The notes beneath the pieces are model-generated. The model had not been told where the DNA came from and did not search any database. It was given only the letters and a program-made list of their open reading frames with translations. Shown here piece after piece: positions 7,530 through 53,798 of a DNA stretch of 64,000 nucleotides. Source of the stretch: Liquidambar formosana (taxonomy: Eukaryota; Streptophyta; Magnoliopsida; Saxifragales; Altingiaceae); contig CM077831.1 of the NCBI GenBank assembly GCA_039720395.1, positions 4,506,003-4,570,002 on the forward strand, given 5' to 3'. The first letter of the stretch is position 1; each line of letters begins with the position of its first letter. Position numbers and translations under genes: made by a program.

Positions 7530-10500
7530 GCAACCTGTCAAAATAACCACCCTACTGCATTGGGTAGTTACCTTATTTGCAAGATTTCATCTTGCAATAG
7601 CCAAAATAACCACCCCACATTGGTGGAGTAGTTGCACCTGTTGTACCTGTCAAGCACCTGCAATTTACATGCAAAACATACCAAAAATACCAACCAACCA
7701 AACCTAGTTTCTAATCAAGCAATTATCATGCTTAAACATAGGCTAACACATGCTCAAAACTCATCATTAAAGCCATTAAACCGATCTGGACAGAGCTTAA
7801 AATCAACCATAAATCATGTAAACAACATGAATCATAAGCTAACTAAAACCCTAATTCAACCCTATATGCAATGACATGCGAAAAAGCCCTAAAATCAACT
7901 ACATGGATGCTCAAAATATCATGTTTAGGACAATAAACAAATCTGGACAGAATGGTATTAAGGCCTATATTCATCCACTAAACATGCAAACAACATAAAC
8001 AGTGAACAATCATAAACCCTAATTCAACCCTAGAACCATGACATGCATAAAAACCTTAAAATCCACTACATGAATGCTAAAATATCATAGTTACCTAATA
8101 TGGAACACATATGCAGCAACTATGAAGAAAAACTAAAGAAGAACCCTAAGCTATCATGCTATATGCAACTTTCCTAAAACAAGGATGAATGAAACCCTAG
8201 AATCACACTAGTGCATAAAATCCCATGAAATCACTTTAAACCATGCAAAACAGAATATGATTAGCATTCAATCCATGCATATTAATCAATAGAATGATCC
8301 ACACATGATAAAGACATAGGCTTTCACATGAAATAATGCTATTCTAAGCATAAACTCAATTTCAGCACAAGAGAAATCCTAGAATCCCAATTATGCAGTA
8401 AATCACATGGAATAACACTCTAGCATGCTAAACAGCCCATAAACATTATCCTAATCATGCATACTAACTAATAGAAGTAGCAAGACATGATAAAAACACA
8501 AGCTTTAATATGCAACAAAGTTATTTCATGCAGAAAACCAATTTCAGCACTAAGGAAACCCTAGAATCCCAAACATGCAGTAAATCACATGGAATAGCAT
8601 TCTAGCATACTAAACAGCCCATGAATATCATCCTAGACATGCATACTAGCTACTAGAAACAACAGGACATGATAGAGGCATATGCTTTGACATAAAATCA
8701 TGCTATTCTATGCAAAAAACCCTAACTTTAAAAGAAAAGAGAAAGAGGGAGAGGTATACCTATGGTGGCTGCTGTAGAGAGTCCTCCTTCTCTTATGCAT
8801 TGCTGGGAATTCCTTCCTTCAGGCCTTCAAGCCAAACTCCAGCACTCCTTCAAGCTTTCTCTCTCACTCTCTCACTCAAAGTTTAGGTTAAACTACCCTA
8901 AGGATGGCTGTCATAGCCTCTAAGTCTCACACATACCTCTCACTTCAGGAATTGCCTCCCCTATTGCTGAAGTATAAGGGGGTATTTATAGGGACTGAGG
9001 GGAAACCCTCAATGGTTGGGATTAAAACCCTAGGTATTGATCCAAGGGCTCTTAGAGGTTCCCTTGGGGCTCAAGTAGGTCAAATAGGGCTAGCGATAGG
9101 ATTAAATGGCGGCTGGAGGCGAGCAAATCCGAGGAAATAGGAAGGGAGCCGCGTCAAGACTCAAAAAAGGAAAGTGGCTCGGGTGACTGTTAGGATTATG
9201 CCCTAGAGCCAATCATAGATATGATTGTTTAGGGATTAGGAACAATCATTTGATTTCATTTATGTATGTCACATTTATTATTGATTTAATAAAAGGGCTT
9301 ATTCTATTATGTTTATATACATAATTTATATTTACATAATATGTCCATGGAGTTAGAGTTGAGAATATGGAATTACAAAGAGTTGTAATTTTGAGACTGT
9401 AGATATATCTCTGTACTAAACTCCTAAAGCATTCCTAGTTGAAAGTTCACTATAATGGACAATAATGAACCATAGGACTAGCACTTGTTAGGTTGACTCT
9501 ATAGGAGGATAGCTAGTCTCAAGCTATTTGTGTGGAGACACTACAACCAACAAGTGGGTGCCTATTACGAGAATAGGTACACTGAATGTGACCAAAGATA
9601 TGAGATAAACTGAATGGAGTTTTATCCTGCCTGTCAATCAGTTTCTCATTGTTATAGTGGTACAAGTAATCCTTAGACTTGAGACACCATAGTTGTCTTA
9701 TGCATGTAGCTTTAGAAGTTTGATAACACTAAGTGCAAATCCTATTCAGGGGTTTGCAAAGGTGTTCATTGGCCCTACTGCTATGTGTATGAAGGCATGT
9801 GAGTGATCAACAAGGGATCCATCACTCTTAGGAAAAAGAGAGAGAATGTCTCATATAGCATTCATAATATAACTCATTAAATCCATGGCCATGGTAGGAT
9901 GAATATGGAAAGAGTTTCATGAGTTCATCAATGAGTTGATATCTATGAATGAGTATAAAGTAATTGAACTAGGGACTTGACAGACTTCCATGTCCTATTA
10001 GTTAAATTGGAGACATTGTGTTGAAGGAAGGATGCAATTGTAACCTATAAACTATAACAGAAGGGTTCTTTGTAAATGACTATTCACCTCATTAAGGACC
10101 ACACCATGAGCCATATGCTAGGTGTTACTCATGGTTAGTAGAAGCCCTAATTGATATAAGTGAGTTATAATCAATTAGGGAATTGGAAGGAGTTCCAATT
10201 AGACCCTAAATGGAAAGAGTTCCATTGTGCACACCTCGTGCTATTCCTACTACTTGATGATGTGAACCCAATGGGTCACACACTGATCATGCAAGATGAG
10301 CTTTAAAGTCTATGAAAGAAAGGGTATGAGTGCATAAAGAATAGTTCTTTGAGGCCATGTTTGTATTTGATATAAACAATAGGGGTCATTGTGCAATTTA
10401 GGGAAATTACACAAAACCCTAAAAAGGTTTCCCCCCTAGGGCCGGCCCCTTTAGTGTGGACTATTTAAGTCACACTATGATGTGTGACATCATAACTTTT

Positions 10501-11604
10501 GGAACTCCCCAAGGGCTGGCCAGAATTTCTAGCCTCCCTCTCTCTCTCTCCTCTCTTCTCCTACTCTAGCAACAACATGGGAAAGAAGGAAAGGACTTGA
10601 AGCTCTAGCTAGGTGTGGATACCGTTGGAGGCAGCACACTTGGGCTGCTCATTCACCGCTGTCCGGAATCAAAGCTTGGAGCAAAAAGGAGAAGACAAAA
10701 TTCTGTAAGTGTTCTAACCCTCTTCGTAGTTAGGGTTTGATTTTGTGTTATGCATAGTTAGATTCATGGGCTGTGGAATCGTAGGAAAAATTTTTATATT
10801 CCACACTTCTATTTTTCCCTCTTGTTCGATTCCCAACAGTGACCACCTGGGGCTGGCCTAGGCGGCTAGCCGCCCAGGCCTGGGTGGTTACCCGAGGCTC
10901 TATCAGCTTCAGCCCATTTTTTACCCTTTCGGCTTCCAAATGTGTTTCAGGGCCCAAATCAACTCCGATTTTGACGAAACGAAAGCCAAAACGACCGTGT
11001 TTCGAAGGGGAATGTAATTTGAGTCACTTGAGGGCAAGAAACCCTAGCCATGGCTGCATGGTTAGATCCTACAAGGGCGGTTAACCGCTATGCACCACCA
11101 TCGCTTAGCTTAGGTATGCACATAGGGTTGCACTAAATGCTTCCCAATTTGAAATTCAACCTCCCTAAACACATTTGGGGATGAAATTAAGACTAATCAA
11201 AGTCAAATGAATAGTCATGGAGTGAAAATCATGAACCAATTCGAGCTAACCCGAAGTTGGTCTTTTAACCAACCTGAGCCATATTGAGCTATTCTAATCC
11301 CGAACCTTCAATTCATCAAATTGAACCCATAAATACCTCAAATACATCCATATGAACTCCAATTGGCAACTTGGAGATCATTTCAAGGTCAAATGGAAAG
11401 TTTGTGACCTAAAAGATGATTATGCCCTTCAAGTCACAAAATTTCTTATTAACCCTCAAGATCAACTCCAAATTGAACCAAAATTCATATCCAGTGTCTT
11501 TGTGATTCTAGAAAACTAATGCAAATAACTAGACTCAAAAACAAAACAAAAACATGCATGGAATGACAAACCCTAGTAAGGTGATGCAAAAATGGGGTGT
11601 GACA
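7530..11604 (-). mobile_element. Tat-2 3' LTR, interrupted and truncated
   Basis: This is a minus-oriented LTR starting (on the minus strand) TGTCACACCCC at 11604. It matches the 35834-39046 copy but stops at the point equivalent to about 36620, where the Tat-3 LTR end abuts it. A solo copia LTR sits inside at 9188-10838, within the left arm of the GC-rich palindrome (9174-9187 and 10839-10894). TATAAATA on the minus strand is at 8983-8990. Confidence 0.85.
9188..10838 (+). mobile_element. solo copia LTR, Cop-2 subfamily
   Basis: It has the termini TGTTAGGATTATGCCC and GATTCCCAACA, and the 5-bp target duplication GTGAC at 9183-9187 and 10839-10843. Its sequence shares diagnostic variants with the Cop-2 LTR at 43761-61700 (for example CACACCTCGTGCTATTCC and GCAAGATGAGCTTTAAAG) rather than with Cop-1, so two LTR subfamilies are present. 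It is 1651 bp long with no internal region. Confidence 0.95.
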
Positions 11605-11617
11605 GAAGCCCCTCATT
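11605..11617 (-). promoter_or_regulatory. polypurine tract of Tat-2
   Basis: On the minus strand the 3' LTR start is directly preceded by AATGAGGGGCTTC. The purine-rich core is the likely plus-strand DNA primer for reverse transcription. The identical string precedes the Tat-1 3' LTR at 18589-18601. Confidence 0.65.
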
Positions 11618-11749
11618 AGTGCAGCAAGTTTCACTTGCGAACCAATGATAAAAGAACATCCCATTTTTGCTTGGGAGAGTAATTGCATCAAATCCAAATG
11701 GAGAACTCCATCATCCTATGGAATTCATCACATATCTTAAGCAATTAGA

Positions 11750-13200
11750 AGTCAATGTCTAGGTAAAGGTCAATACCTAGGACAAGCAGAGGTAGCTCTA
11801 AGTGAAGGTCAACACCTAGGATGAGTACAAGTCAATACTTGAAGAGAATCAATATTGGGAGTGAAGGTTAATACTCAGGGTGAGTAATAGTCAATACTAG
11901 AAAGGAGTAAGGATAAATATGAGTGGAGGTCAACACTCGGAGTGAGTACCTGTCAATACTCAAAAGGAATCAGAGTGAAGTTCAACACTTGGGGTGAGTA
12001 CCAGTCAATACTCGGGACAAATATGCTTTAATGATTAGAATGAGTATGGGTCAATACATAGGGTGAGTATGGGTCAATACTCAAGATGAATATGCGACAA
12101 TATTCAGGGTAAGTATGGGTCAATGCTTAGGATGAGTATATATCAGAACTCGGAATGAGTATAGGTCAATACTCAGGAGAGCCAATAAGACATCGTATGG
12201 GTAAGAGTCATTACTCAAATGAGAACCCATGATAGATAGAAGTCAATATCCATACTGAAAATCTAAAAAGAAATCCCATGAATAGAAGTCAATACTTAAA
12301 AACACACAAGCAAGGGTCAATGCTTGCTATAAGTAAAGATCAATACTCACAAAGAAAAGCTTATGAGCAAGGGTCATTGCTTGAAATGAGTAGGATTCAA
12401 TACTCACAGAGAAAGTCATACGAGCAAGGGTCAATGCTTAAGATAAAATGTATATAAGCAATGGTCAATGCTTGAAATGAGTAGGATTCAATACTCACAG
12501 AGAAAATCACTTGAGCAAGGGTCAATGCTCAAGATAAAATGTATATAAGCAAAAGTTAATGCTTAAAATGAGTAGGATTCAATACTCACAGAGAAAATCA
12601 TTCGAGCAAGGGTCAATGCTCAAGATAAAATGTATATAAGTAAAGGTCAATGCTTGAAATGAGTAAGATTCAATACTCATGGAGAAAATCATTCGAGCAA
12701 GGGTCAACGCTCAAGATGAAGTGTATATAAGCAAAGGTCAATGCTTGAAATGAGTAGGATTCAATACTTACCGAGAAAATCATTTGAGCAAGGGTCAATG
12801 CTCAAGATGAAATGTATATAAGCAAAGGTCAATGCTTGAAATGAGTAGGATTCAATACTCCCAGAGAAAATCATTCGAGCAAGGGTCAATGCTCAAGATA
12901 AAATGTATATAAGCAAAGGTCAATGCTTGAAATGAGTAGGATTCAATACTCACTGAGAAAATCATTCAAGCAAGGGTCAATGCTCAAGATAAAATGTATA
13001 TAAGTAAAATTCAATGCTTGAAATGAGTAGGATTCAATACTCACAGAGAAAATCATTTGAGCAAAGGTCAATGCTCAAGATAAATTGTATATAAGCAAAG
13101 GTCAATGCTTGAAATGAGTAGGAGTCAATACTCACAAAGAAAACTATTGAACAAAAGTCACTGTTGGTGATGAGTAGGGGTCAATACTCAAAGTGCATGT
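11750..13200. repeat. hairpin array of Tat-2 with a GTCAA loop
   Basis: This is a chain of short inverted repeats sharing an 8-base loop that ends in GTCAA. The arms differ from unit to unit but stay complementary: CTAGGTA/TACCTAG (11759-11780), GAGTG/CACTC (11921-11938), GAGTA/TACTC (12065-12082), GAATA/TATTC (12088-12105), CAAGCA/TGCTTG (12307-12326), AAGCA/TGCTT (12729-12746) and GAGCA/TGCTC (12786-12803). From 12390 to about 13190 it becomes a regular 91-bp tandem repeat: GTAGG recurs at 12390, 12481, 12572, 12754, 12845, 12936 and 13027, with variants at 12663 and 13118. Each 91-bp unit holds three hairpins. The array lies between the post-pol spacer and the polypurine tract. Confidence 0.9.
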
Positions 13201-15479
13201 GAACACTCAGGGACGAGTACATGTGAATACTCGAGAGAGCCTACGAAGACACTAGTTAAGTGGGGAATCACTATTCATAAGACAGGAATGGTATAGAGAC
13301 TAAGCCAACACCATATGGAGAGAAACTATCAACCACACAACCAAAAACGAAAACTAGTCAAATATGATCATGGGAAAATGAACCTCCAAAACTCAATGAA
13401 CACTACATATTACTAATGCACACATCAATTAATCAATCAACTCAAGTAAAATTGATTCACACAGATTTATTAGCACAAGTTCAAAGCCATGCACAGAAAG
13501 ATTTATTGGAAGTGGTTTTGTAAACCTATCATTCTTTTTCCTTAAAGACCTCTTTACATACATAGCACAATCATGGAATTTTCAAAAGCCTTTTTCTTTG
13601 TTTATAAAATGGTGGTCGAGCCTTCTTAGGAAACAATGCAATTTAGGAGGATCGGATCAATCCCATGAATTCTTTTTCAAGGTATAGGAATGGATTGGAA
13701 TCACCTCTTCTTCTCTTCTTCTTTCTTCACTTCTCTTTTTTCAAAACCCTAACTTTTGCCTAGATTGCCCTTATAGGTTTTCAACCTAGCGGGTTGCCCT
13801 AATTTTTGCCTAAGCCGCCCTTTCGGGTTTTCAACCTAGCGGGCTCTTCTTCTTTACCTTTTTTCTTTTTTCCTTTCTTTCCTTTCTCACTAGCACAAAG
13901 AAATTCAACTCATGAAGCCCCAGCCCATTCCCTTCATCAATTCATTTAAGTTCTCTGAATAAGACAAACTAGCCCCAGCATTCATTCAAATTCTTCTTTA
14001 ACAAGCATAATCAGCCCCTGGGTTCATAACACATTCACGTTCTTCAATTGAGAAAAATAAATCAGCCCCTGATCTCAAGAAATCACATGCCTACAACTAA
14101 GGCAAATCGTTTCATAGTGGTTACTGCTACCCCTTTTCCATCATTAAATCCATGACAAGAGTCTAAGTCAAGAGGTAAGAAGATATAGAATTTGATGGAA
14201 CCCACAAATGAATCATCATGATTGAATACTTTCAAAGGACGAGGTCTATGACCACTAGAAACACACAAGACTCAAGAGAGGCGAAGGAAAAAAGTGGAGG
14301 GACATCCGAAGGACTCAAACCAAACAAGAACAAGAAAAATAATCAAGTTAACTTCCTTGGTGGCATGTAGTATTTTAGCTCACTAATTTGATGAATGAGA
14401 CTATTTCCTTTTGACTTATTGACAAAGAATTGCCTTCAATGGTTGGTTATATGTAAAGCCTCTTTCTTTTTCTTTTCTTTCTTTTTTTTTTTTTAATGAA
14501 TTGGACCGCACCCAAAGTTACTTTATGGGCTGCCTACGTATCTCCACATTGATATTCACAAGACATTTACAAAACAAACATTTCTTTTTTTTGGTAGAGA
14601 ATCAGGTCCTCATAGTTCAAGAGATTTATTCTTCATTTTTTCAATAACCCTAACTTTTGCCTAGGTCGCCTTTTCAGATTTTCAACCTAGCGGGCTTAGG
14701 CTCTACACATAACCACATAGGGACCACCCTTTACTTGGCTTGAACTTCTCCAACGAGTCACGAACATGGGTTGTAGTCTTCTTTGATTATAAAACTCTCT
14801 TGATTGTTGTTGATTCTCCTTCTTGAGGCTTTTGGATGTTAATCCCCTCCCTTTTCTTTTTGTACCTATTTTGTTTTTTTTTTTTTGTGCACTTTTCCCT
14901 CCTTTTTTTTTCTTTTCACAATTTTTTCTTTTAACTTTTTTTTTTTTTTGAGGGAGAGGGAAATAAACATCTCCAAAAGCTCACCATGCTAATTGATTTC
15001 TTCTTTTGATCTTTGAATTGCTTCTTATAAGGGTTTCAAGATCTTCTCGAGTTGCTTGATCTATGTCTTCACGTAGTGTATTGGGCGGGTGGTCCTTTAT
15101 GTTTACCATTTTGGACTTTTCCAAGTTTTCTAGTCAATTAGTCACAGTTTATTTATCATTCTTTATGTTTGCTCCTTTAATGGAAGGAGTTTTTAAGCCT
15201 CTTAGCAAATATTTCATGTCACTTTGATTGTCAATTGATTGATGAGAAGAGAAATAGAAAAACAATGGAATTCTTGAAATCAAACATTTTACTGAAGGAA
15301 TGCAGAAGAACACATTGAAAATCTTGACTTGACAATTATTAGGACTCGAAAGACTCATAATTTCAAAGGACATTTGACTTGAAAGACGAAAACAATCAAA
15401 TAACTAGAAAACAAAGAAACAAACCCTAAGTCTTCTGTAGGACAAACAACCTAAACTCTTTATCACAAATAGTCATGAC
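13201..15479 (-). other. Tat-2 post-pol spacer, no coding sequence seen
   Basis: No convincing reading frame is visible. The region resembles the stretch downstream of the Tat-1 integrase. The motif TAACTTTTGCCTAG followed by a GTTTTCAACCTAGCGGG core occurs at 13749-13792, 13797-13844 and 14649-14696, as at 23106-23157 in Tat-1. A second shared motif, GACCGCACCCAAAG with GCCTACGTATC downstream, lies near 14504-14541, as at 22944-22981 in Tat-1. Several T-rich runs (14475-14495, 14870-14890, 14935-14950) also match the Tat-1 layout. It is therefore pol-downstream sequence joined to gag by a deletion. Confidence 0.6.
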
Positions 15480-15804
15480 AAAATTGGTGCGACAGTAAGC
15501 ACTAAATGGATTGCCTTTAGAGTGAATGATTGGGTGCCTTAGGTAGAGAGACAATTCCCTGGTCAAAGAGGTCTTGGATTTCATGTTTCAACCTTGGGCA
15601 TCGATCAGTGCTATGCCCCTTGCCTTGGTGGAAGTCACAAATACTCATTCTCTTTAAAGCGACCAGGTAATGGGTTAGGCAACGGTGCTGGGTCAAGGGG
15701 TTGAAGTAAACCTTTCACCTTCAACTTCTCAAAAACATCGCTTAATGGCATGTAGAGTTCGGTAAATTGGCAGGACTATTGGGGAGATATGGCATTAACA
15801 TGCC
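15480..15804 (-). pseudogene. Tat-2 gag, C-terminal fragment
   Basis: The minus strand, read from 15804 downward, continues the gag interrupted at 33707. It encodes a segment homologous to Tat-1 gag around its first zinc knuckle, including a PLDPAPLPNPLP-like stretch and a knuckle of the form C-x2-H-x4-H-x4-C. One frameshift lies just before the knuckle. After about 15480 the similarity to gag stops and spacer sequence begins. The TSD ATGCC at 15800-15804 and 33703-33707 proves that this piece and the one at 33708-34707 were once contiguous. Confidence 0.75.
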
Positions 15805-18588
15805 TGTGAACCCCGGAAATTGGGCCCACGAGGGATTGAAAAGAAAGTGGGTTTGAAAAAGAAAAAGGAAAGGAGTCGCCACCTTATTTTTTAAAGGAAA
15901 CAAGGAAAACCCTAAAAATCAGGTTGTTTTAGGAAAACAATTTGAATGACTCCATAAAAAAAGGAAAGGCAAAAACCAATCTTTTGAAAACCAAAGAAAT
16001 CGGGGATTCGGAGGCTAAGTTATGACATGGGAAGGTTCTAGGCAAAGCCTATAGGCACCCATGTCACCCTTTTGGTCTCTCAGTTCATTTGGGCTAAATT
16101 AAAGTCTTTCCATACAAGAATCAGCACGTATATCATCACAAGAATTGCATGCATATCATATATTTCATTCATCCATCCATGCATAATAAGCAAATAAAAA
16201 CAGAAAATAAAAAGAAGAAAAGAAAACATAAATAAACCTAGGATGCTTGGATCCTAGAACGGACTTGAGCCTCACGAAGAGCGCCTACGTACCATGCAAC
16301 GAAATACATGGATCAAAGTCCACGTAGTTCGATTAGAACTAAGGTTAAGACTTAATACAAACCTATGGTTAAAACCCTAGGTTTCCTTATTTGATCAAAA
16401 GAGTTGAATTTGATAGAGAGTTTGATTTTAGAAAGAACTCCACAAAATGGAAACTTTAATAAAAACTAGAATTTTATTTATGAAGGAAACCTTTGATTAA
16501 ACCATAGACTTGTATTAAAAATTAACCTTAAATAGGGAGAAGAGAAGGGATAAGGAAGAAAGGTGAATTGGGGCACCTTCACACCCACTTACCTGAGCGC
16601 AATTACTCCAAACATTAGCTATTTCAGACATAAGCAGCCCTATTTGCCATAGGACAAATACCACACCTATTTGCACCCTTACAAGTGCTCAAAACCATGC
16701 AAAAACACTAACATGCAAATCTGGACAGAATAGTATTATGACCTAAAATCATCCACTAAGCATGCCAATAGCAAAAACAGCGAACAATAATAAGTCCTAA
16801 CATATTCCTAGAACCATATCATGCATAAAAACCCTAAAACATACTAACATGCATGCAAAACTATCATGTTTACTCCATATGAAAAACATATACAGCAAAC
16901 ACGAAGAAAAACCAAATAAAAAAGTCTACTTTATCATGCTATATGAAAACAAACACAAAACAATAACTCTAAAACCCTAAACTCACAAATATGCTTAAAA
17001 ACTCACAAGACATACTTTAATCATGCTAAAACCAAACTAAACAGAAATTAAATCATGCATATTAACTAACTAAAGCAATATAACATGATGAAAATCCTAA
17101 CTCTAACATGCAATGACACTAATCCTAGCACAAGGACAAACAGGAGCACAAGAATCATAACTATGCATTAAAAACCTAAAGGACAGCCCTAAAGCATGCT
17201 AAACAGTAGATAAAAAATAGATATTCCATGTATATTAACTAGCTAGAGTGTTAATACATGATAAAAAAGTTACCTTTAACATGCAATAAGCCTAACCCAT
17301 ATGAGAACCTAGTTTAAGCTTGAATAGAGAAGGAGAATACCTTAGGAAGTGGCTCCCATTGTGTTTGTAATTGTTCGTGGCTCCTCAGGTCTTTAGAGTG
17401 AATCAAACCAACACGAATCCTCCTCTTTGTCAAAGTGGTATCACAGCAAAGAGATCAAAACTCACTCAACTTTGAAAAGAAATAGAAAACAAAAAGAGAA
17501 CAAGAGAAAAGAAAAAGTGATTCTCGTCACTTTGCAGCAGCAGCAACTTCAATCGCGTTTTTGGGTATGAAAACGTTGGATTTGGACAAAGCTTGTGAAA
17601 TACAAAGTTGTAGAGAATTGAATTATCTTTCTAACAAGACCAATTTCATCAAATTCTGACTTCGGATGAAAACGTTATGATTAAAATACGACCGCTGGTT
17701 TTCAGAAAATCTGCTGCTGAATTATGACGAATTTCACTCCCTCCAAACCCTCTTCTCCTCTCCCCTTGTTTAAAGACATTAAGAGAGTATTTATAGCTGA
17801 AATCTGGAGTTTCCCTTTCCTTCCTGGACTAGGTTTCCTTGGAGAATAATCAAAAGGTATTTTATAATGATAAAAGACTTCTAATCTGAATAGGAAAAGG
17901 AAATTGTCTTTTATAAAAATTGGGAGACTGACCGCTAACACGCATGCACATGTATCGTATGTGCGTACACACACTCATCACATACGTACACGTGTTAGTG
18001 TCATGATAAAAATGGCTAATTTAATAAAATAATTTTCTTTTCATTTTAACCAAAAATCTCATGCTGTGATTCGCACTAATTCTTCAAGGATAATCCGTAA
18101 ATAACCACACTAAACTCATCATCAGGCCATATCAAAATTGAACTTCATGAAACACTTTTGAGGGTAAAATGATGACTAATGAAAGTCAATTTGAAAAGAT
18201 TTGGTTGGTAATTGTGAGTCAATTAGAGCTAACCCAAGGAAGGGTCAATTAACCAACTTGAACTACATCGAGCCATTTTAATCCCGAGCCATTGACTTAC
18301 CAAATTGAACCTAGAAATACTTCTTATGCATCCATATGAACTCCAATTGACAATTTGGAGATCATTCCAAGGTCAAATGAAAAGTTTGGGACTTAAAAGA
18401 CGATTATGCCCCTCAAGTCACAAAAGCTCTTATTATCCCTCAAGATCAACTCCAATTTGAACCAAAATTCATATCCATTGTCCTTGTGACTCTAGAAAAC
18501 TAATGCAAGTGACTAGACTCAAAAACAAAACAAAAACATGCATGAAATGATGAGCCCTAGTAAGGTGGTGCAAAAATGGGGTGTGACA
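15805..18588 (-). mobile_element. Tat-1 3' LTR
   Basis: The minus-strand termini are TGTCACACCCC (at 18588) and GGGGTTCACA (at 15805). On the minus strand it carries a long imperfect palindrome upstream of the promoter (about 17936-18000), TATAAATA (17788-17795), a consensus splice donor CAG/GTAAGT (donor G at 16592), the Tat hairpin block (about 16232-16325) and the stem TGACATGGG/CCCATGTCA (16023-16031, 16058-16066). GGTGGCGACTCC is at 15872-15883. It shares only parts of its sequence with the Tat-2 LTR, so it is a separate LTR type. Confidence 0.95.
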
Positions 18589-18601
18589 GAAGCCCCTCAT
18601 T
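18589..18601 (-). promoter_or_regulatory. polypurine tract of Tat-1
   Basis: The minus strand reads AATGAGGGGCTTC immediately before the 3' LTR start, identical to Tat-2. It is the probable second-strand primer. Confidence 0.7.
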
Positions 18602-18719
18602 GGCGAACAAGTTACACTTGTGAACCAATGATAAAGAACAACCCATTTTTGCCAAGAAGCCTGGAGAAATCACACACTGATACCAACAATGATGGGAGGT
18701 TGAAAACCTGAGACTGAAA

Positions 18720-21050
18720 TAAGGAAGTGTACTCAAGTCATGAGTATACTTAAACCACTGGGGGTTGATGATTGTCAAGAGAAGCATATTCAAGCCACTA
18801 CGAATGAACATACTTTTGAAACGGAGAAATATATTCTAGTCACGAATATATTTAACCAAGTGATGAGAATGAGATCTGAAAAGTACGTTCAAGTGACGAA
18901 CGTACCTTGGAAATGGAGAAGTATATTCAGGTCACGAATATATTTAACCAAGTGAGTGACAAAAAATCTAAGAAGTATACTCAAATGATGAGTATACCAC
19001 TGAAATGGAGAAATATATTCAGGTCACGAATATATTTAACCAAGTAATCTGATAATGAAATCTGAGAAGTATACTCAAGTGGTGAGCTTACCATTGAAAT
19101 GGAGAAATATATCCAAGCGATGGATATCTTTAACCAAGTAGGATAAGAATAATCTGAGAGGTGTATTCAAGTGATGAGTGTACTTTTGAAATGGAGAAAT
19201 ATATTCAGGTCACGAACATATTTAACCAAGTGATGAAAAAGATGCTGAGAAATATACTCAAGTGATGAGTATACTTAATGATTGAAAAAGACTGAGAAGT
19301 ACGTTCAAGTGATGAACATACTTTTGAAATGGAGAAATGTATCCAAGTGATGGATATATTTAACCAAGTAAGCTGAGAAGTACACTCAAGTGATGAGCAT
19401 ACCATTGAAATGGAGAAATATATCCAAACGACGGATATATTTAACCCAGTAAGATAAGAATAATCTGAGAAGTGTACTCAAGTGATGAGTACACCATTGA
19501 AATGGAGAAATATATTCTAGTCACGAATATACTTAACCAAGTAAGTGACAAGTATGTTTGAGTGATAAACATACCATTGAAATAGAGAAATATATCCAAG
19601 TGATGGATATACTTAACCAAGTAAGTGACAAGTATGTTTAAGTGATAAACATACCATTGAAATAGAGAAATATATCCAAGCGATGGATATACTTAAGCAA
19701 GTAAGATAGAGAATAATCTGAGAAGTGTACTCAAGTGATGAGTACACCATTGAAATGGAGAAATATATTCTAGTCATGAATATATTTAACCAAGTAAGTG
19801 ACAAATAATCTGAGAAGTATGTTCAAGTGATGAACATACCATTGAAATGGAGAAATATACCCAAGCGATGGATATACTTAACCAAGTAGGATAAGAATAA
19901 TCTGAGAGGTGTATTCAAGTGATGAGTGTACTTTTGAAATGGAGAAATATATTTAGGTCACGAACATATTTAACCAAGTGATGAAAAAGATGCTGAGAAA
20001 TATACTCAAGTGATGAGTATACTTAATGATTGAAAAAGACTGAGAAGTACGTTCAAGTGATGAACACACTTTTGAAATGGAGAAATGTATCCAAGTGATG
20101 GATATATTTAACCAAGTAAGCTGAGAAGTACACTCAAGTGATGAGCATACCATTGAAATAGAGAAATATATCCAAGTGATGGATATACTTAACCAAGTAA
20201 GTGACAAGTATGTTTAAGTGATAAACATACCATTGAAATAGAGAAATATATCCAAGCGATGGATATACTTAAGCAAGTAAGATAGAGAATAATCTGAGAA
20301 GTGTACTCAAGTGATGAGTACACCATTGAAATGGAGAAATATATTCTAGTCATGAATATATTTAACCAAGTACGTGACAAATATTCTGAGAAGTATGTTC
20401 AAATGATGAACACACCATTGAAATGGAGAAATATATCCAAGTGATGGATATATTTAACCAAGTAAGTGGCAAAATATCTGAGAAGTATACTCAAGTGATG
20501 AGTATCCCATTGAAATGGAAAAAATATACCCAAGTGGTGGATATACTTAACCAAGTAAGTGACAAATGATCTGAGAAGTATGTTCAAGTGATGAACATAC
20601 CATTGAAATGGAAAAAATATACCCAAGTGGTGGATATACTTAACCAAGTAAGTGACAAATGATCTGAGAAGTATGTTCAAGTGATGAACATACCATTGAA
20701 ATGGAGAAATATACCCAAGCGATGGATATACTTAACCAAGTAAGTGACGAAATATCTGAGAAGTATACTCGAGTGATGAGTATACCATTGAAATGGAGAA
20801 ATATATTCAAGTGATGAATATATTTAACCAAGTAAGTGATAATGAGGATCTGAAACTAGGAAGCATATTCAATGGGTGAACATGCTTTTGAAATGGAAGA
20901 ATATATTCAAGTGATGAATATATTCAACCAAGTATGATAGAGAATGAGAATTTGAAACTGAGAAGCATATTCAAAGGGTGAATACACTTTTGAAATGGAA
21001 GAACACATTCAAGCGATGAATATATTCAACCAAGTAGGATGAAAAATCAA
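18720..21050. repeat. hairpin array of Tat-1 with constant loop and covarying arms
   Basis: About 23 tandem units of 92-93 bp, each holding two inverted repeats with a 7-base loop, mostly AAGTGAT or AGGTCAC. The arms vary but remain complementary: GTACGTTC/GAACGTAC (18883-18905), GTATACTC/GAGTATAC (18975-18997), AATATATTC/GAATATATT (19012-19036), AATGTATCC/GGATATATT (19336-19360), GTGTACTC/GAGTACAC (19472-19494), GTATGTTT/AAACATAC (19552-19574) and GTATGTTC/GAACATAC (19817-19839). Between the hairpins lie CATTGAAATGGAGAA and TAACCAAGTAAGTGAC. Frames open across the array are repeat translations. A block of eight units is duplicated about 748 bp apart (from 19141 and from 19889). The array lies upstream of the antisense ORF promoter. 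Confidence 0.95.
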
Positions 21051-21318
21051 GATTTGAAATGAGGATATATGATCAATTTATCAAGATTGAACAGGCATGG
21101 TGCAAGAGGAGAGTGACTTAACACATTGTCACTTGAGTTGGCATGACACAGGGGAAATATATTCAACCCTTTTGAACATAAAATCAATTCAAGGAATTGA
21201 TTTCAAGATGGAATTTGATTGATTTCAAGCTCAAAAAGTGTTGAATATCTCATTTGGAAGGAGGTTTGATCACGCGTCAAGGCGAGACAAAGCGAGGGAG
21301 AAAGCCAAAACAAGGTGG

Positions 21319-21376
21319 CTTGGGTGACCACCAGGCCTCAGGAGGCTAGCCGCCCAGGCCTGGGTGGTTACCCGAG
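21319..21376 (+). promoter_or_regulatory. GC-rich palindrome upstream of the antisense ORF
   Basis: Arms CTTGGGTGACCACC (21319-21332) and GGTGGTTACCCGAG (21363-21376) enclose GGCTAGCC. This is the palindrome of the B-type LTR promoters. It is absent from the Tat-1 LTR, yet present here about 90 bp upstream of the TATA box of the antisense ORF. Confidence 0.8.
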
Positions 21377-21463
21377 CCCGAAGCGGAAATCCCACTTTGA
21401 ATAGGAAACTTCCTATTCTGATGGGTTTTTTCCTATTAGAACTTGGATTTGTGACCTTTTCCC

Positions 21464-21471
21464 TATAAAAA
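21464..21471 (+). promoter_or_regulatory. TATA box of the antisense ORF
   Basis: TATAAAAA lies in the context TTTTCCCTATAAAAACACAT, 49 bp upstream of the ATG at 21520. The same 20-base context precedes the homologous ORF of Tat-6 (minus strand, TATA at 62262-62269), so the promoter is conserved between diverged elements. Confidence 0.7.
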
Positions 21472-21519
21472 CACATCCAAGAGGTTCCTAGACCTACTTG
21501 TATTCATTCATTAGAAATT

Positions 21520-22806
21520 ATGGAGTCTCTAGACAAATTTTTAGGAGGGTTTTTGAGAGTTATAAGTGCTGAAGCAAAATCTGAGTTCAAGTGCTTTGGC
21601 TTGGATCCATTGCTCTCCTTGAGGCATGTGAGGCTTGAAACGAACCTCTTGACTGCTGCTACATATTTTTGGGATCCTCAAGTTCATGTGTTCCGCTTCA
21701 ACTATGAAGAACTGTGCCCAACCATGGAGGAATTCTGTGCATTGTATGGAGTTTCAACGGTAGGTCCTTTCATTCTCCCTACTCCTCGCCCAAGCTTTCT
21801 TACTTCTTTCTCCAATCTACTTGGGATTCACTCACAATATGCCTCTACGTTTGTAAAGGACCATATTGTAGACTTGATGAAATTGGCAACCTCTTTTTTA
21901 GCTTGTGATAGTAAAGGTATTCTGAATTTTACCTTTCCTATTAAGCATGCTCTTGCCTTTTGCCTCATTGGTCGTTTTGTTATTTCCACTGGTACTCCAC
22001 ATGTTCCCATTCAAATCTGTGACTTGATTCCTCTCCTTGCCAAGGGCCATAACTTGATTCCCATGGTGCTAGCTGAAACCCTGAATGGTTTGGATAAAAC
22101 TCATGAGGACCCAAAGGTTCCTTTAGGAGGTAGCCCCATTCTACTGCAGATGTGGTTGCTTGAAAGACTGAATTTCTTGTCACCAGTTGCCATTACACCA
22201 TACAAGCCCCAGCATTACTGCCTTCGCCGCATTGAACTACCTGGGCAATTTTCATTGAGAGATTGGCTAGGTTACTTCCAAACCCTTTCTTGGAGGAGTG
22301 TCAAGTGGTTTGTATTCATATGGGGCTGCAGTGACCAGGTGCTTCTGCGGACTTCTGGATGCGCCATGGTGAGACTCATAGGACTGAGGTCTACTTCCTT
22401 CTATTGGCCTTCAAGGGTTCTTCGTCAGATGGGCGCTATGCAAACCATACCCACTTCCTTGAAAGGTGACTATCCTGTGGTGCCCGCGGGTCTTTCTGTA
22501 GTGACTTGGGCGAAGGACCGATGGCCTAGAAAGCTGACACTGACTCAAGTGACGAATACTGATGGTCCGTATATGATGAGCCCCGAGTATAAGGAATGGT
22601 TGAAAAGCAATTTAGGTGAGAGAGAGACTACTCGAAGAGAAAGGATTTTTGGACTTATCAAGAACAATGAACTTGGATCTTGCAGAGAAGATATTATGGA
22701 AGCAGTGACAGCAGCTTATGAACATGACTTGAGGAAGAAAAGAAGACATGAAAGAGAGAAGAAGAAAGCTGAAGAGCGAGCTGCAAAGAAGCCCAAGAAA
22801 AACTGA
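21520..22806 (+). CDS. antisense extra ORF of Tat-1, plant mobile domain-like protein
   Basis: This is an intact 428-codon frame on the strand opposite to gag-pol. I chose the ATG at 21520 because the homologous ORF in Tat-6 begins at the equivalent ATG (MEALDGFL versus MESLDKFL) and both follow a conserved TATA box. Around residues 55-75 it has FNYEELCPTMEEFCALYG, which resembles the W-x-P...E-x-TPT-x-E-[DE] core of plant mobile domain (PMD) or DUF7745 proteins. RVLRQMGAMQTIP near residue 305 resembles the R-x-x-RQ-x-G-x-x-Q-x-IP motif of the same group. The last 30 residues are very rich in Lys, Arg and Glu and could be a nuclear localisation signal. Extra ORFs, sometimes antisense and with a transposon-associated domain, are known in Tat elements. 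Their function is unknown. I saw no catalytic motif. Confidence 0.8.
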   Translation: MESLDKFLGGFLRVISAEAKSEFKCFGLDPLLSLRHVRLETNLLTAATYFWDPQVHVFRFNYEELCPTMEEFCALYGVSTVGPFILPTPRPSFLTSFSNLLGIHSQYASTFVKDHIVDLMKLATSFLACDSKGILNFTFPIKHALAFCLIGRFVISTGTPHVPIQICDLIPLLAKGHNLIPMVLAETLNGLDKTHEDPKVPLGGSPILLQMWLLERLNFLSPVAITPYKPQHYCLRRIELPGQFSLRDWLGYFQTLSWRSVKWFVFIWGCSDQVLLRTSGCAMVRLIGLRSTSFYWPSRVLRQMGAMQTIPTSLKGDYPVVPAGLSVVTWAKDRWPRKLTLTQVTNTDGPYMMSPEYKEWLKSNLGERETTRRERIFGLIKNNELGSCREDIMEAVTAAYEHDLRKKRRHEREKKKAEERAAKKPKKN

Positions 22807-23036
22807 AGACTCAATAGAATAGGATATTTATGGCATATTTATAGTTCTTTTACTTAATACCAATGAATTGCTATGTCAATCAATTTTAGTTTTGGATAAA
22901 TTGCCAATAATAAATCAAATTTGGGATTTTCTTGTTTGATTTAGACCGCACCCAAGGTAACTTTATGGGTTGCCTACGTATCTTCATGGTTTTTTTTCTT
23001 CTTTTTTTTTTTGTTTTTTTTTTGTTTTTTGTTGTT

Positions 23037-23070
<34 letters not shown>

Positions 23071-23157
23071 TTTTTGAATGGAGAATCAGGTCTTACGTAG
23101 TTCTTATGCCTTAACTTTTGCCTAGGCCGCCCTTACGGGTTTTCAACCTAGCAGGCT
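22807..23157 (-). other. Tat-1 spacer between integrase and antisense ORF
   Basis: The stretch holds no gene. It contains the motif GACCGCACCCAAGG with GCCTACGTATC downstream (about 22944-22981), a long T-rich run (about 22989-23069; poly-A on the element's sense strand) and the TAACTTTTGCCTAGG motif with GTTTTCAACCTAGC (23106-23157) directly beyond the integrase stop. The two transcripts, gag-pol on minus and the antisense ORF on plus, converge here, so both polyadenylation sites could lie in this spacer. Confidence 0.6.
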
Positions 23158-26100
23158 TCAAACATGATATTTCTTCAATTGATCCAAATTAGTTGGACAA
23201 GCGAACTCAATTCCATCTAAATCCATGAGGTGAACAGCCCCTGCTGGCAATATCTCTTTGATAATGTATGGCCCACCCCAACTTGGCTTGAATTTTCCCC
23301 GCGGATCGAACACTGGAGCTCTGATTTCTTTCAGCACTACATCCCCTTTCTTTAGACCTCGATCTTTGACATGCTTGTTGAATGCTCTGGCAACTCTCCG
23401 TTGATACCCCTGAACATGATACAGCGCCCTTAAACGCCTTTCATCCAGCAAAGCTAACTCATCATAGCGGCTCTTAACCCAGTCCACTTCTGTTATCTGG
23501 CTCTCCACGGCAACCCTTAGTGAAGGAACCTCTAATTCAACTAGCAACACGGCCTCCATTCCATAAACTAGAGAATAAGGGGTAGCCCCTGTTGACGACC
23601 TTATTGATGTTCTGTAACCCCATAAAGCCAATGGCAACTTCTCATGCCAGTCTGTGTGCGAGTCCGCAGTCTTCTGTAGTATCTTCTTGATGTTCTTGTT
23701 AGCTGCTTCCACCGCTCCATTAGTCTGAGGACGGTATGGTGATGACAGATGGTGAACTATGCCGTACTTTTGCAAGAGCTCATGGGTTTCTTTCTGAAAG
23801 TGCTGGCTATTGTCTGAGATAACTTCATGCGGTACCCCATATCAATAGATGATGCTGTGCTGTATGAACTGTGCTACCTTCTTGGAATTCAAGGTCTTGA
23901 AGGACGCTGCTTCCACCCACTTAGTGAAGTAGTCGATGGCAACCAGGATGTATTCATGCCCATTTGATGCCTTTGGCTTGATCTGTCCGATGATATCTAT
24001 CCCCCACACCGCGAATGGCCAAGGTGACGACATACTCGTTAAAGGCATAGAAGGCAAATGTTGTCCACTGGCGAACAGTTGGCATTTGTGGCACTTCTTG
24101 ACATGTGCGTGGCAGTCTCTTTCCATGGTGGACCAATAATACCCTAACCTCATGATTTTCTTAGCTAACATATAGCCATTCATATGCGGAGCCCCTGTCC
24201 CTTCATGGATTTCTTTAATCAGATGCTCGGCTTCTTCCTCGGTGACATACAGCAGGTGGATCCCGTCGTATGATCTCCGATATAGCTTTCCTCCACAAAG
24301 TACATAGTGACTCGCCAACCACCTTAGGGTTTTTCTATCGATACAAGATGCTCCTTCTGGGTATTCCCTTTCTTCAATGAACTTCTTTATGTCATGGAAC
24401 CACGGACGGCCATCATTTACCTCTCCTCCTCGGATTGCACAACAGTACACAGGCTTGTCTCGGCATTCTATCACCAACGGCTTCACATTTCCCCTTTCAG
24501 GTATCTCCACCATGGATGCTAGGGTCGCCAAGGCATCGGCGAACTGGTTCTTGTTCCTTGAAAGGTAGTTAAATTCTATCTCTGAGAACTCCTTGGTTAG
24601 AGCTTCCAAGTAGGCATGGTAGGGTAGCAGCTTCTCATCTCGAGTTTTCCATTCCCCTTTTATCTGACAAATGATTAGCGCCGAGTCCCCGAACACTTCT
24701 AATTCTTTGATCCCCAATTCAAGTGCCGCTTCCAGTGCTAGGATACAGGCCTCATACTCAGCAATGTTGTTGGTGGCTTCGAACCCCAACTTGACCGCCA
24801 ACGGTGTAACTGCCTCTTCGGGTGAGACCAGCAGGACTCCTATCCCATAACCTTTCTTATTGGCTGCCCCATCAAAGTATACTCTCCAAATTTTTCTGCC
24901 AATCTCTAGCACGTCCTCGTCTGGGAACTGATCTTTGAATGGAGCAGATGATGACACAGGACAGCTGGCTAGGTAGTCTGCGATGACGCTCCCCTTGATA
25001 GACTTCTGATTCACGTACTTGATGTCGAATTCGTTGAGGAGAATTGACCATCGAGTAGTTCTGAATGACAATACTGGCCTTTCTACCAGGTACTTCAACG
25101 GGTCCATGCGACTTATCAAGAACACTTCGAAGGACATCATGTAGTGCCGGAGTTTCTGCGTCGCCCATACTAGTGCTACACAAGCTTTTTCAATTGCATT
25201 GTACTTCACTTCATAGTCTGTCATTTTCTTGCTTAGGTAGTAGATGGCATTCTCCTTTGTAGACCCTTCGAGATATTGAGCTAACAAAGCTCCCGTCGCG
25301 GTTTCGGTGACCGTTAAGTATAACAAAAGTGGCGCACCTTGCCGTGGGGGAACTAAGATTGGAGGATTGCTCAAGTATCTCTTAATGGTCTCAAAGGCCT
25401 CTTGGCATTCTTCGTTCCATACTTTTGGCACACCTTTCTTAAGCAATTTGAAGATTGGTTCGCAAACCATGGTTAAGTTAGCAATGAATCGGCTTATGTA
25501 TTGAACTCTTCCCAGAAAACCCCGGATCTGCTTCTCAGTGCTAGGCGGCTCCATCTCCACAATAGCTTTTATCTTCCCTGGGTCCACTTCGATACCTCTC
25601 TGAGTGATCATAAACCCCAATAGCTTGCCTGCAGTGACACCAAAAGCGCACTTCTGTGGGTTGAGACGGAGATTGTACTGTTTTGCTCGCTCTAGGAATT
25701 TCTCTAGTGCCTTGAAATGCCCTTCTCTATCCACGGACTTTACGATCATATCATCGACATAAACCTCGACTTCCCTATGGATCATATCATGCAATAGGGT
25801 CGTAGCTGCTCTTTGGTAAGTAGCCCCAGCGTTTCTTAAGCCAAAAGGCATTACTTTGTAACAGTACGTTCCCCATTGCGTGATAAAGGCTGTTTTCTCC
25901 ATGTCTTGAGGTGCCATCTTTATCTGGTTATACCCGGAGAATCCGTCCATGAAGGAGAGGAGTGCATGTCCCACCGTGCTATCTACCAACACGTCGATAT
26001 GGGGTAAAGGAAAGTCATCCTTAGGGCTCGCGGCGTTGAGATCTCGGAAGTCGACACACATCCTCACTTTCCCATCTTTTTTAGGCACAGGCACTATATT

Positions 26101-26536
26101 CGACAACCACTCGGGGTACTCCACAACTTGGAGGAAACCCGCGTCTAGTTGTTTAGTTACCTCTTCTTTTACTTTTAGGGCCCATTCTGGTTTTAATCTT
26201 CTGAGTTTCTGCTTTACCGGCTTCTTTAGGGAATTAGTGGGGATATAGTGTTGCACAATATCGGGGTCGGTGCCAGGCATGTCTTCATAAGACCATGCAA
26301 AAGCCATAATATTGGCTTTCAAGAGGGAGATCATCTTTTCTTTTTCAACGGGGGAGAGGGTTTTCCCAATTTTAACTATTCCTGGCAATTCATTCGTCCC
26401 TAAGTTGATTGATTCCAATTCATCCATATTAGGTTCGGTGACGCCCCTTTTCCTTTGCTCAACGAGCTCCGGGGGAACATCGTTCCTAGGATCTATATCC
26501 ATGCCATAAATATCCATAGAAGAGAGAAAAGAGACA
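23158..26536 (-). pseudogene. pol: Tat-1 pol 3' exon: RT, RNase H, second RNase H, integrase (one stop)
   Basis: This exon copies the element RNA into DNA and inserts it. Numbering from the ATG at 26517: reverse transcriptase about 110-330 with the catalytic YVDD at 253-256; a first RNase H about 400-520 whose opening Asp is replaced (TVTETATGALL); and a second, archaeal-type RNase H about 575-705 with YFDGA, AEYEA, FGDSALI and FADAL keeping all acidic residues. The integrase zinc finger near 770-815 has HEGTGAPH and CHKC, and the catalytic core has GIDIIG, SDN and the Glu of TNGAVEAANK. The dual RNase H is diagnostic of the Tat lineage. One in-frame TGA (23844-23842) splits the integrase core. 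The frame resumes without a shift and ends at 23158. Confidence 0.9.
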
Positions 26537-26707
26537 CTGCATATATAGAGAAAGAAAGCACACTTTATTCACTAGGAATAATGGGAATGACACACAAAAG
26601 AAAGAAGGAAAACAAACAAATCTGTATCAATACTATGACTCCACAAAGTGAGTAAAGTAGATACATCTTATTGAATTAGGGAAATATTACTAAACTAAGA
26701 CACCTAC
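26537..26707 (-). other. predicted intron inside Tat-1 pol
   Basis: The upstream frame ends in a TAG at 26706-26704, and the downstream frame begins with no upstream signal. On the minus strand a GTAGGT donor begins at 26707, and a TTTCTTTCTC tract followed by GCAG ends at 26537. Removing these 171 bases deletes the stop and joins the two frames in phase. Ogre-type elements are known to splice an intron between protease and reverse transcriptase, so position and layout agree. Splicing itself was not tested. Confidence 0.75.
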
Positions 26708-29700
26708 AAGCTGCTATCAGGTAGGCCAAGGTCTTCTTCTTCATGGATCTCCGCAACGACACCACATTCAAGGTACCAATTCAGGAGTGGCAAGGTAGCA
26801 TGGCTAATGGACGAACCCTGGAGTTCTTCAATGGTCGAGTCTTCCATGATGAGGATCATGTCTTGGAACATTTCAGTCATAGCCCCTGCATCAAGGTTCT
26901 CTGCCCAGTCCTCCTCTTTCTTTTCCCAGAACTCATCATTGATGGCATCATCATCCACCATTTCAGCTGTGATTGGATACCATTCGGTGAAGAAGATTTC
27001 AAAACCCGGAACTCGGATCTTGGTAGCTTGGTCAAAGGTGGGCTCTAGAAACCCGCAATATAGAAAATCATCCCCTTCTTTGACGAAGTAACCATTCAAA
27101 GTAGGTCGATATGGCGAGATCTTCAGGTCTGGCACCCTTCCCTCGGCTTTGGCTCTTACTTTCTCTTTATTCCTCTTCAGCATTTCCACATAATCATTTC
27201 TGGAGGGCTCATATCCTAGCCCGAAGGTGTATGAGGTGACACGGCTTTGAATAAACGTAGGGATCCCTTGTTGGTGACGCCCTAGCCCCATGCCTGGAAA
27301 GAAACTCATTCTTCTCATGATTTCACCAACATGCAAGTTGCCATGGGGACAAAAGTCCAAGGGTATTAATTCACCCTTTTCGAGCTCTTTTTCAATGCAT
27401 TGGACATAGTCAAACCCAGATAGCGGTATCGCTGCTGATTCGGGTTGTATCTCACATATAGGCACACCTGCGAGTTTAAATTCATAGTCCCCTTGAAGTG
27501 TTACTATGGCCCCTTCGTAAGGAAACTTCACCTTTTGATAGAGTGAAGATGGTACAGTCCCAGCAGGATGGATCCAAGGTCAGCCCAACAGCAAGTTGAA
27601 ACATGACGGCACATCCAACACTTGGAATTCTACCCTAAATTCAGTGGGTCCCATGATAAGAGGCAAAGTAACTACCCCTATTACTTCTCGGCGGGTGTTG
27701 TCATAAGCCCTTACGGTCTGCCCAGATGGCGTGAAATCAGTGGGTCCCAAACCCAAAACAGTGGCAGTTCGGAGAGGACATACATTCAGTGCGGACCCAT
27801 TGTCGATAAGAACGGTGGGAGCCCTCTTCCCCATAGTGTCAACGGTCACATAGAGAGCTTGAGAATGGCTCGGCCCGCTTTTAGGTAGGTCTACATCGGT
27901 GAACACGATGGTTGAGTTCTTGGGAGTTGGATTCACCAAATGTACCAATCCCTCGGGGGATGTGTCAACAGGCACTTGTATCTGATTCAACAGTTTCAAC
28001 ACGGTCTGTCTGTGCTTATGCGAGGCCATGAGCAAGCCCCAAATAGTAATGTTGGCATTGGTCTTCTTCAGCTGCCTAAGCACTTCATCCTCTTCTTCTT
28101 GCAAGTTAGGACGCCTCTGCCCTTCCAAATCTTCCAACGGATTTTCAGATTCTAGGTGGGGGGGCTTGAAATGACGACCCCCTCTGGTTATATGGTCCAA
28201 CTCATCATCGCTAGCCCATATGTCATGGACTTCCTCGGAGTCATTCATCAAGTCATCCCATTCTATCATGTCGATGCTCTCCATCTCTGTCGGCAAGTCA
28301 TCCCAACCTGAAGGGACTATCGGCTCATCTGATATCGGACTTGGGCTTGAGTACAGCACATAGTAATCATATTTCCCCGACGCTTCACCTAATAGGCCAA
28401 CCTGAGGATCCCCTGCTTCATATCTTTCTTTCAGCTCTTGTTGGATAGATTTCTTTGGCAACAACAAAACCTTTTGGTCAATGAGGTCTTGGATGATCTT
28501 CTTTAGTATAGAACAAGCCTCGGTGTCATGGCCGGGTGCACGATGGTATTGGCAATATTGGTGAGGGGTTGATGGTCTTGGCTTTGGTGGAAGTGGCATG
28601 ATAAGGCTGTTATTGCGGCAAATGGTGAAGAGATGGGTTAAGGTCATGGGGAGCGGAGTGTATTGTCTTATGGGATGGCGAGGGCGAGAGGATTCAACCC
28701 CAATGGCATTTATGGTGTTAGGTGGGGGTGTGTTGTTGTGTGATGGGAGAGGATTACGGGTGACATTTGGACGGGTTGGTGGTGAAATGACTTGCTTGTC
28801 AATGAGGTCTTGGACTTGGTGGCGAAGGCGAATACAGCGATTGGTGGCATGGCCTTTGGATTGATGGTACTTGCAGTACTCATTCTCATTGTAGCTCTTG
28901 GGTAAGGGATTTGGTGGAGGTCTTGGGTCGAGTGGCTTCAATAGGTCACGACTTATGAGCTTTTCAAGGACTCTTTCGAGTGGCATGAATAGGTCAGTGA
29001 ATTGGCGAGGTGGGTTGACATCATTGAGAGAAAAGGGTTGGATTGGTTGAGTTATGGTGTTGACCTTGGCATTGTTCTTCCCAGTAAAGTTTGTCTTGCG
29101 ACTCCTCACTTCCTCAGTCTTGATTGTCCCATCATTGATAGCATCTTCAACCTGCGTGCCAGCCCCAATGAGAGCTTTGAAATTTGGGAAATAGTGGGCA
29201 AATAGGTGCTTGTGATATACGGGCAGCAGGTTCTTAACTACTAACTGAATTTGGTCCTCCTCATTCGGCCTATCCGTCATTCTCGACGCCTTTTGTCTCC
29301 ACCTTGTAATGTAAGCGGAGAAAGTTTCATGAGCCCCTTGCTTGGTAGTTTCTAGGTCCCTTCGAGTAACGTCCACCTCTGTGTTATACTTGTAGTGCTC
29401 TGAAAACTCATTGCATATGTCTTCCCAAGTCCGGGTTCTATTCTCATCCAAGGATAAGAACCATTTCAAAGCAGAAGTGGCCAAGGTTTCATGGAACATT
29501 TGAGCTAAAAGCTCGTCAGTAGCCCCTCAAGGGTGCATAGCTCGCACGTACATCTTCAAATGAGTCTTAGGGCAACCCGTCCCATCGAACTTTTCTAACT
29601 CCGGCATCTTGAATTGTAGTGGAATACGAGCCGTTGGAAATAGGGATAGAGTCCGCACATCGACCATGTCATCAGCCCTGCGAATCCCTTTTATGGTTCT

Positions 29701-30915: not shown

Positions 30916-30918
30916 AAC

Positions 30919-43746: not shown

Positions 43747-43750
43747 TGCA

Positions 43751-53790: not shown

Positions 53791-53798
53791 ATAGTGCA

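Follow-up and report, generated by a model that had tools for sequence, protein, structure and literature searches.

Tandem repeats have been described in the hypervariable 3'UTR of Tat/Ogre/Retand retrotransposons, where they lie, like the array reported here, between pol or the antisense open reading frame (ORF) and the 3'LTR, have family-specific sequences and are sometimes a source of satellites (accessible sections of PMC7004042 and PMC11963269). The unit size of the present array is within the 8-100 bp reported for Retand repeats in the same sections (PMC11963269/PMC7004042). The majority of the satellites of one legume derive from Tat 3'UTR repeats, and a hypothesis on how the repeats arose is reported (PMC7004042, in part); the origin and function of the Tat 3'-region tandem repeats are stated to be unknown in the accessible part of PMC11963269. 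The word "hairpin" occurs in the main text of neither paper (PMC7004042, PMC11963269) and "palindrom" just in a reference title, whereas the repeats described here consist of covarying hairpins and occur in two element families. An architecture of hairpins with covarying arms was not found for Tat 3'UTR repeats in the open-licence literature searched. Known, then, are tandem repeats at this place; apparently new are the covarying hairpins, which occur in two neighbouring Tat elements.

The constitutive transport element of type D retroviruses and the direct repeats of Rous sarcoma virus (RSV) sit near the 3' end. Both are cis-acting RNAs; the stem-loop of the type D element is bound by TAP/NXF1, and the RSV repeats flank src (PMC3856414, in part). 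They are present in one or two copies, compared with about 50 hairpins here, and the likeness would be one of kind. Structured RNA transport elements of LTR retrotransposons include the RTE of IAP and the MTE of MusD, both from mouse, of which the MTE is one complex fold with a pseudoknot and kissing loops and not a series of tandem hairpins; the same review, in its accessible sections, finds no direct study of RNA export of plant LTR elements (PMC12786077). Compensated changes in short palindromes are also known from hairpins maintained by template switching (PMC8794818, in part).

The window analysed is a stretch of 64,000 nt of Liquidambar formosana DNA (GCA_039720395.1, CM077831.1:4,506,003-4,570,002, forward strand) that contains nested LTR elements (Table 1). 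One of these, Tat-1, is a young Ogre/Retand-type Ty3/gypsy element of the Tat clade. Angiosperm Ogre and Retand are characterised by a second RNase H, positioned between the first and the integrase (PMC6317226, in part), and the 908-aa pol ORF of Tat-1 contains RT_RNaseH at residues 412-514, RVT_3 at 565-683 and Integrase_H2C2 at 776-832. The extra ORF and the long non-coding region of this clade, often with tandem repeats, are represented by the antisense ORF and the array. In Ogre, an intron-bearing gap lies between the gag-protease and RT ORFs; in Tat-1, 135 bp (26569-26703) separate the RT ORF from the preceding ORF, but a stop also parts gag from that preceding ORF. An antisense ORF with a TRP28 domain is found in 97% of Retand clusters (PMC11963269, in part); TRP28 was not listed for the Tat-1 antisense ORF, for which the matches were PMD and DUF7745. 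The order of Tat-1 is pol, antisense ORF, array, 131 bp and 3'LTR, which places the array close to the 3'UTR end in the genomic RNA.

A G-patch domain (PF01585, 22.8 bits; cut-off 22) was detected in the Tat-1 ORF at 26704-27579 (-), between gag and RT. This domain is present in some retroviral proteases. For the antisense ORF, a relative of 92% identity is present on a public contig of 5735 bases (P0001), the flank of which could have room for another array. The DNA of this relative gave no match in viral_contigs, and no protein-level relative was confirmed in viral_contigs and genome_contigs.

Table 1. Features of the Tat-1 and Tat-2 elements (window positions; sense RNA of the arrays corresponds to the minus strand)
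Feature	Position	Strand	Remarks
Tat-1, whole element	15805-33702	-	
Tat-1 3'LTR	15805-18588	-	99.57% identity to 5'LTR
Tat-1 5'LTR	30919-33702	-	
Tat-1 target-site duplication	15800-15804 and 33703-33707		ATGCC
Tat-1 gag ORF	27580-29526	-	
Tat-1 pol ORF	23842-26568	-	RT, RNase H, second RNase H (RVT_3), integrase zinc-binding domain
Tat-1 antisense ORF	21469-22806	+	ATG at 21520; PMD / DUF7745 domain
Tat-1 hairpin array (array 1)	18707-21038	-	23 regular two-hairpin units and partial units; 50 hairpins of 11+5+11
Example unit	18881-18945	-	A hairpin 18881-18907, B hairpin 18919-18945, 11 nt apart
Edge units with private compensated pairs	20861-21027	-	Column 4 is C-G once and U-G in two neighbouring hairpins; the two B hairpins have G-C at column 1
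Partial or single-hairpin units	18707-18762, 18776-18864, 19248-19278, 19996-20026		
Tat-2 hairpin array (array 2)	11740-13240	-	23-bp units, 91-bp higher-order unit; 50 hairpin segments (22-mers, 41 distinct)
End of Tat-2 3'LTR adjoining its array	10839-11604	-	96.6% identity to 38286-39046 of 5'LTR
Small hairpin between array and 3'LTR, within block shared by the two elements	18607-18621 (Tat-1), 11624-11638 (Tat-2)	-	Outer pair A-U in Tat-1, G-C in Tat-2 (by eye)

The hairpins of array 1, 36 of which are distinct, fit a frame of 11-nt arms and a 5-nt loop; one long-loop hairpin seen by eye within 18776-18864 is outside this frame and was left out of the count. Two hairpin types (A and B) mostly alternate, with 11-12 nt between them in the regular units. 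A sequence-only reading had described about 23 units of 92-93 bp with two inverted repeats each. The count of regular units agrees with this, but partial units are also present, and the spacing is less strict than 92-93 bp: tandem repeat (TRF) periods of 80 and 102 were found besides 92-93, plus multiples and fractions. Positions 18720-21050 contain 35 strong hairpins (score >= 8), compared with 0.8 on average and at most 2 in 30 dinucleotide shuffles. For the eight core pairs, counted over all 50 hairpins, 355 of 400 cells are Watson-Crick pairs on the sense strand, 31 are G-U, 11 are A-C and 3 are other. An additional outer UGG/CCA helix was predicted on the B hairpin by RNAalifold. The array has been turned over, since a block near 19157-19404 recurs near 19905-20152.

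The loop had been described as constant. The 5-nt core of the A type is TCACT (sense) in 20 of 26 hairpins, and its entropy (0.36 bits per column) is lower than that of the arms (0.60 and 0.48). The B type shows 6 core forms among 24 hairpins, and its loop (0.62) is more variable than its arms (0.35 and 0.37). The best-kept stretch is the spacer between hairpins (0.17; one insertion column was omitted from these entropies). Constancy of the loop was thus not upheld: B loops vary more than the spacer, and only in the A type is the loop better conserved than the arms.

A covariance model of the array-1 unit gave 39 matches, 38 of them inside array 1, and did not find array 2. The single weak match elsewhere, at 48791-48860 (E 0.0098), was taken as chance in AT-rich sequence. 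Rfam models gave no match at gathering score in 11500-33800.

Covariation, which had been named beforehand as a possible refutation, was tested and the result was positive. In 38 aligned hairpins, drawn from the 50 and including all distinct ones, 93.4% of 396 cells pair, compared with 86.7% when the 3' letters were redealt, and 0 of 500 shuffles reached the observed value. Two-sided change was found in 9 of 11 pairs, and slid-partner controls gave 20.5-50.5% pairing. When hairpins were picked by the flanking spacer and not by pairing, B-type arms (n = 24) paired with their own partner in 97.4% and with random partners in 94.5% of cells, and A-type arms (n = 21, perhaps with a few misplaced segments) in 86.9% and 78.3%, with 0 of 2000 random runs reaching the observation in either type. 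A looser A-type anchor, which picked 45 segments and took in sites without hairpins, was set aside. Own partners were better than, worse than or tied with those of the second-next hairpin in 44, 8 and 44 comparisons. A 3' arm and the following 5' arm paired at 0.83 (46 neighbour pairs), compared with 0.97 within hairpins.

Trees were used as a further null, in which the substitutions of each branch were replayed at random stem positions. The observed Watson-Crick count was reached in 0 of 300 runs on the hairpin tree, for which (as for the event counts) identical hairpins were collapsed, and in none of 300 runs on either of two unit trees, which were built from the 23 regular units without the four partial units; one insertion column was omitted here and in the event counts. 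The covariation score was reached by 0 and 1 of 300 runs on the two unit trees, the latter being the non-stem unit tree. B-type hairpins alone were weaker (12 of 300 runs reached the observation), and the measure "further standard pair types" showed no excess over shuffles in array 1 (245/500; 498/500). The arms of array 1 are coupled within each hairpin, beyond random partners, slid partners and tree nulls, and the earlier description of a tandem hairpin array with arms changed in matched pairs was borne out.

Folding of both strands, which had been proposed as a check, agreed with this result. Local minimum free energy (MFE) z-scores, from 20 dinucleotide shuffles each, were -19.6 (sense) and -12.6 (antisense) for array 1, and -9.3 and -5.2 for array 2. 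Controls gave -1.2/-1.7 (182-bp LTR tandem repeats, set at 37290-37825), 0.0/-1.1 (array-less 3'UTR of a third Tat fragment) and +1.1 to +4.5 (two coding stretches). The 182-bp repeats fold little better than shuffles, so tandem repetition alone does not yield the folding of the arrays. The MFE fold contained 43 of 50 array-1 hairpins on the sense strand and 34 of 50 on the antisense strand. For array 2 it contained 23 and 16 of 50 segments, respectively, which makes the fold of this array less certain.

Array 2 belongs to Tat-2, the element within which Tat-1 is inserted; it has the same place relative to the 3'LTR and a different sequence, and the sequence-only reading had not reported it. 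It is also made of covarying hairpins. Its segments were picked by pairing and loop likeness, and the sense loops start with TGA in 45 of 50, a constancy that is partly a result of this choice. In segments picked by loop motif alone (n = 42), pairing with the own arm was 0.919 compared with 0.816 for random arms (0 of 2000). In the alignment, 87.0% of 246 cells pair, compared with 79.4% after shuffling (0 of 500), and two-sided change was found in 6 of 6 pairs, a count reached by 15 of 500 shuffles. The tree null was passed narrowly (0 of 300; 181 Watson-Crick cells, null maximum 179), and further pair types showed no excess over shuffles (98/500). Own partners were better, worse or tied in 45, 8 and 45 comparisons with the next hairpin, and in 27, 9 and 58 with the third-next. 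Between neighbours (3' arm with the following 5' arm) the value was 0.70 (22 pairs), compared with 0.93 within hairpins. Strong hairpins showed no excess in array 2 (1 compared with 0.4 at score 8), although 21 compared with 4.8 were counted at score 6.

Tat-2 (11605-15804 and 33708-35841) looks like a gag-only, non-autonomous element whose gag is interrupted by Tat-1. It retains the upstream ORF (86%) and gag pieces up to about residue 254. RT, integrase and the antisense ORF were not found on Tat-2 by tblastn, and Pfam gave no domain in 13241-15803. Tat-2 moved rather recently, because its LTR pieces are 96.6-97.4% identical, and perhaps it moved already without pol. A block beside the 3'LTR is common to both elements (83.9% over 11152-11670 and 18135-18652). 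Arms ATACTC/GAGTAT are seen by eye in both arrays (12040-12178; 18973-18999), in opposite order around the loop; from these shared arms, the two arrays may have a common origin. Within the window, Tat-2 thus carries an array of this kind, and a third Tat fragment near 61705-63147 has part of an antisense ORF and no array. Not all Tat elements therefore need an array.

The substitutions in the stems follow a particular pattern. Alternative Watson-Crick pairs are all transition-related, in 9 of 9 variable columns of array 1 and 6 of 6 of array 2. T-A and A-T both occur in the outermost column 1 (7 and 2 of 50) and the loop-side column 8 (6 and 2 of 50) of array 2; these two mostly unpaired border columns are the exceptions to the transition-only rule and were placed outside the stem. 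On the array-1 unit tree, transversions made up 10% of stem and 40% of non-stem changes (Fisher p 0.0004); the figures were 8% and 28% on the array-1 hairpin tree (p 0.047) and 12.5% and 49% in array 2 (p 0.0003), with rounded counts in all these tests. A strong asymmetry of G-U over A-C on the sense strand was first apparent in array 1 and was rejected. The ratio of WC>GU to WC>AC events was 19:8 in array 1, compared with 12.9:10.4 at unpaired positions (Fisher p 0.24), and was reversed in array 2 (6:10). The G-U share per cell was 0.76 (null 0.58) in array 1 and 0.32 (null 0.42) in array 2.

Paired arms without function could result from mutational repair: a polymerase engaged in DNA replication or reverse transcription would switch template in an imperfect palindrome, and one arm would be rewritten with the other as template. 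The mechanism has been described and leaves a footprint of the same kind (PMC8794818, in part). The palindromes here are short with small loops, and template switching would explain a pattern that is tied to neither one strand nor one loop. Double changes on a single branch also speak for it; there are 9 in the unit tree and 3 in the hairpin tree, where the null gives a mean of 0.72 and a maximum of 4. Loop inversion as a mark of template switching was inspected by eye alone. However, template switching should also make pairs from transversion mismatches, and in the stems of the two arrays a transversion-related alternative is found in none of 15 variable columns, whereas unpaired positions change by transversion in 28-49%. 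In rRNA genes, 61% of instantaneous compensations are of the transition type (PMC8794818, in part), compared with all variable stem columns here, and wobble states persist in several array-1 units. Template-switch repair has no reason to shun transversions, but stepwise passage via a wobble pair does, and transition-only compensation thus fits maintenance of the fold better. Repair by template switching, which the sequence-only reading had offered as its alternative, is considered rather unlikely while retaining appreciable weight. Hairpin units may instead have provoked jumps of reverse transcriptase such that well-paired units were copied most, with selection acting on units and not on the element. 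The turnover of array 1 is in line with such a drive, and it would explain arrays that differ between families yet are both palindromic; Macas et al. 2009, as given in the accessible part of PMC7004042, propose that the repeats arise by illegitimate recombination or abnormal strand transfer. By itself, however, amplification creates no compensations, and edge units that are apparently unamplified still hold private compensated pairs. This drive is considered improbable.

At the DNA level, cruciforms or palindromic sites could serve as an enhancer or insulator of the promoter of the antisense ORF. The antisense ATG is 470 bp downstream of array 1, and on either strand folding is better than in shuffles. 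On the other hand, a protein that reads fixed bases would not tolerate paired variation of the arms, the third Tat fragment has a piece of an antisense ORF and no array, and Tat-2 has an array in the same place without a trace of the antisense ORF by tblastn. The enhancer proposed earlier is weakened by this last result, and a role at the DNA level is very improbable. Neutral coincidence would require that a few arm haplotypes were spread by homogenisation and that parallel transitions arose in identical contexts (e.g., methylated CpG) in both arms. Because the arms are copied as haplotypes, cells are not independent; the null has no context-dependent mutation, and column 6 (CG versus TG/CA; hairpins 18881, 19297 and 20045) fits CpG decay in both arms, by eye. 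Parallel CpG decay may explain this one column but not nine; the number of compensated columns (nine in array 1, six in array 2) and the tree nulls (0/300 for the Watson-Crick count) oppose this explanation, which is hardly credible.

Selection on an RNA fold is the preferred explanation, held tentatively and somewhat short of probable: within the 3'UTR of the Tat-1 genomic RNA, the array would be a structured, multivalent RNA element. Tat-2 keeps its array though RT, integrase and the antisense ORF are undetectable, and the edge units hold private compensated pairs with the U-G state next door; both were counted in favour. Fifty redundant hairpins would place little selection on each, and the tree null treats mutation as context-independent; both were counted against. 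Selection for a fold that presents a constant loop had been suggested from the letters alone, and of this suggestion the fold survives, being kept beyond chance and also in a second element, but the loop is not the best-kept part. Since the fold would matter, stem-breaking mutations would be removed or rescued through a wobble pair, and tandem duplication and exchange would renew the units; the array would then shift fast in sequence while its hairpin form persisted. The array may act in cis on the genomic RNA, which is the least certain step. A host or Gag protein might be recruited, its target most likely being stems and not a loop of fixed sequence, with many stems bound at once. Candidate steps are export of unspliced RNA, packaging and protection from decay, and packaging or protection would be equally eligible; any particular step is at most about a third as probable as selection on the fold itself.

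An extension to Tat-type retrotransposons as a group, each genomic RNA carrying a multivalent element of tens of hairpins whose sequence is renewed by tandem turnover and whose fold is selected, is doubtful. If true, the hypervariable 3'UTR repeats and the satellite DNAs derived from them would be relics of a functional RNA device and not junk, and both would bring hairpin-rich arrays into plant chromosomes. If covarying hairpins are the rule among Tat repeats, a single covariation scan of any plant genome could put the origin and role of these repeats to the test, and its data would also tell selection on RNA apart from template-switch repair.

Several other repeats are present in the window. 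A repeat of ~1.7 kb occurs in Tat LTRs and elsewhere (3907-5605, 9188-10838, 45692-47391 and 53808-55506), with three copies 98.9-99.1% identical and one about 88%. The 182-bp tandem repeats are inside Tat LTRs at 1210-1860, 8274-8721, 37377-37824 and 58686-59141. Another LTR element, presumably of the copia superfamily judging from its domains, is present in two diverged copies (39046-44232 and 49853-54279), with ORFs at 40252-42270 that contain copia-type pol domains.
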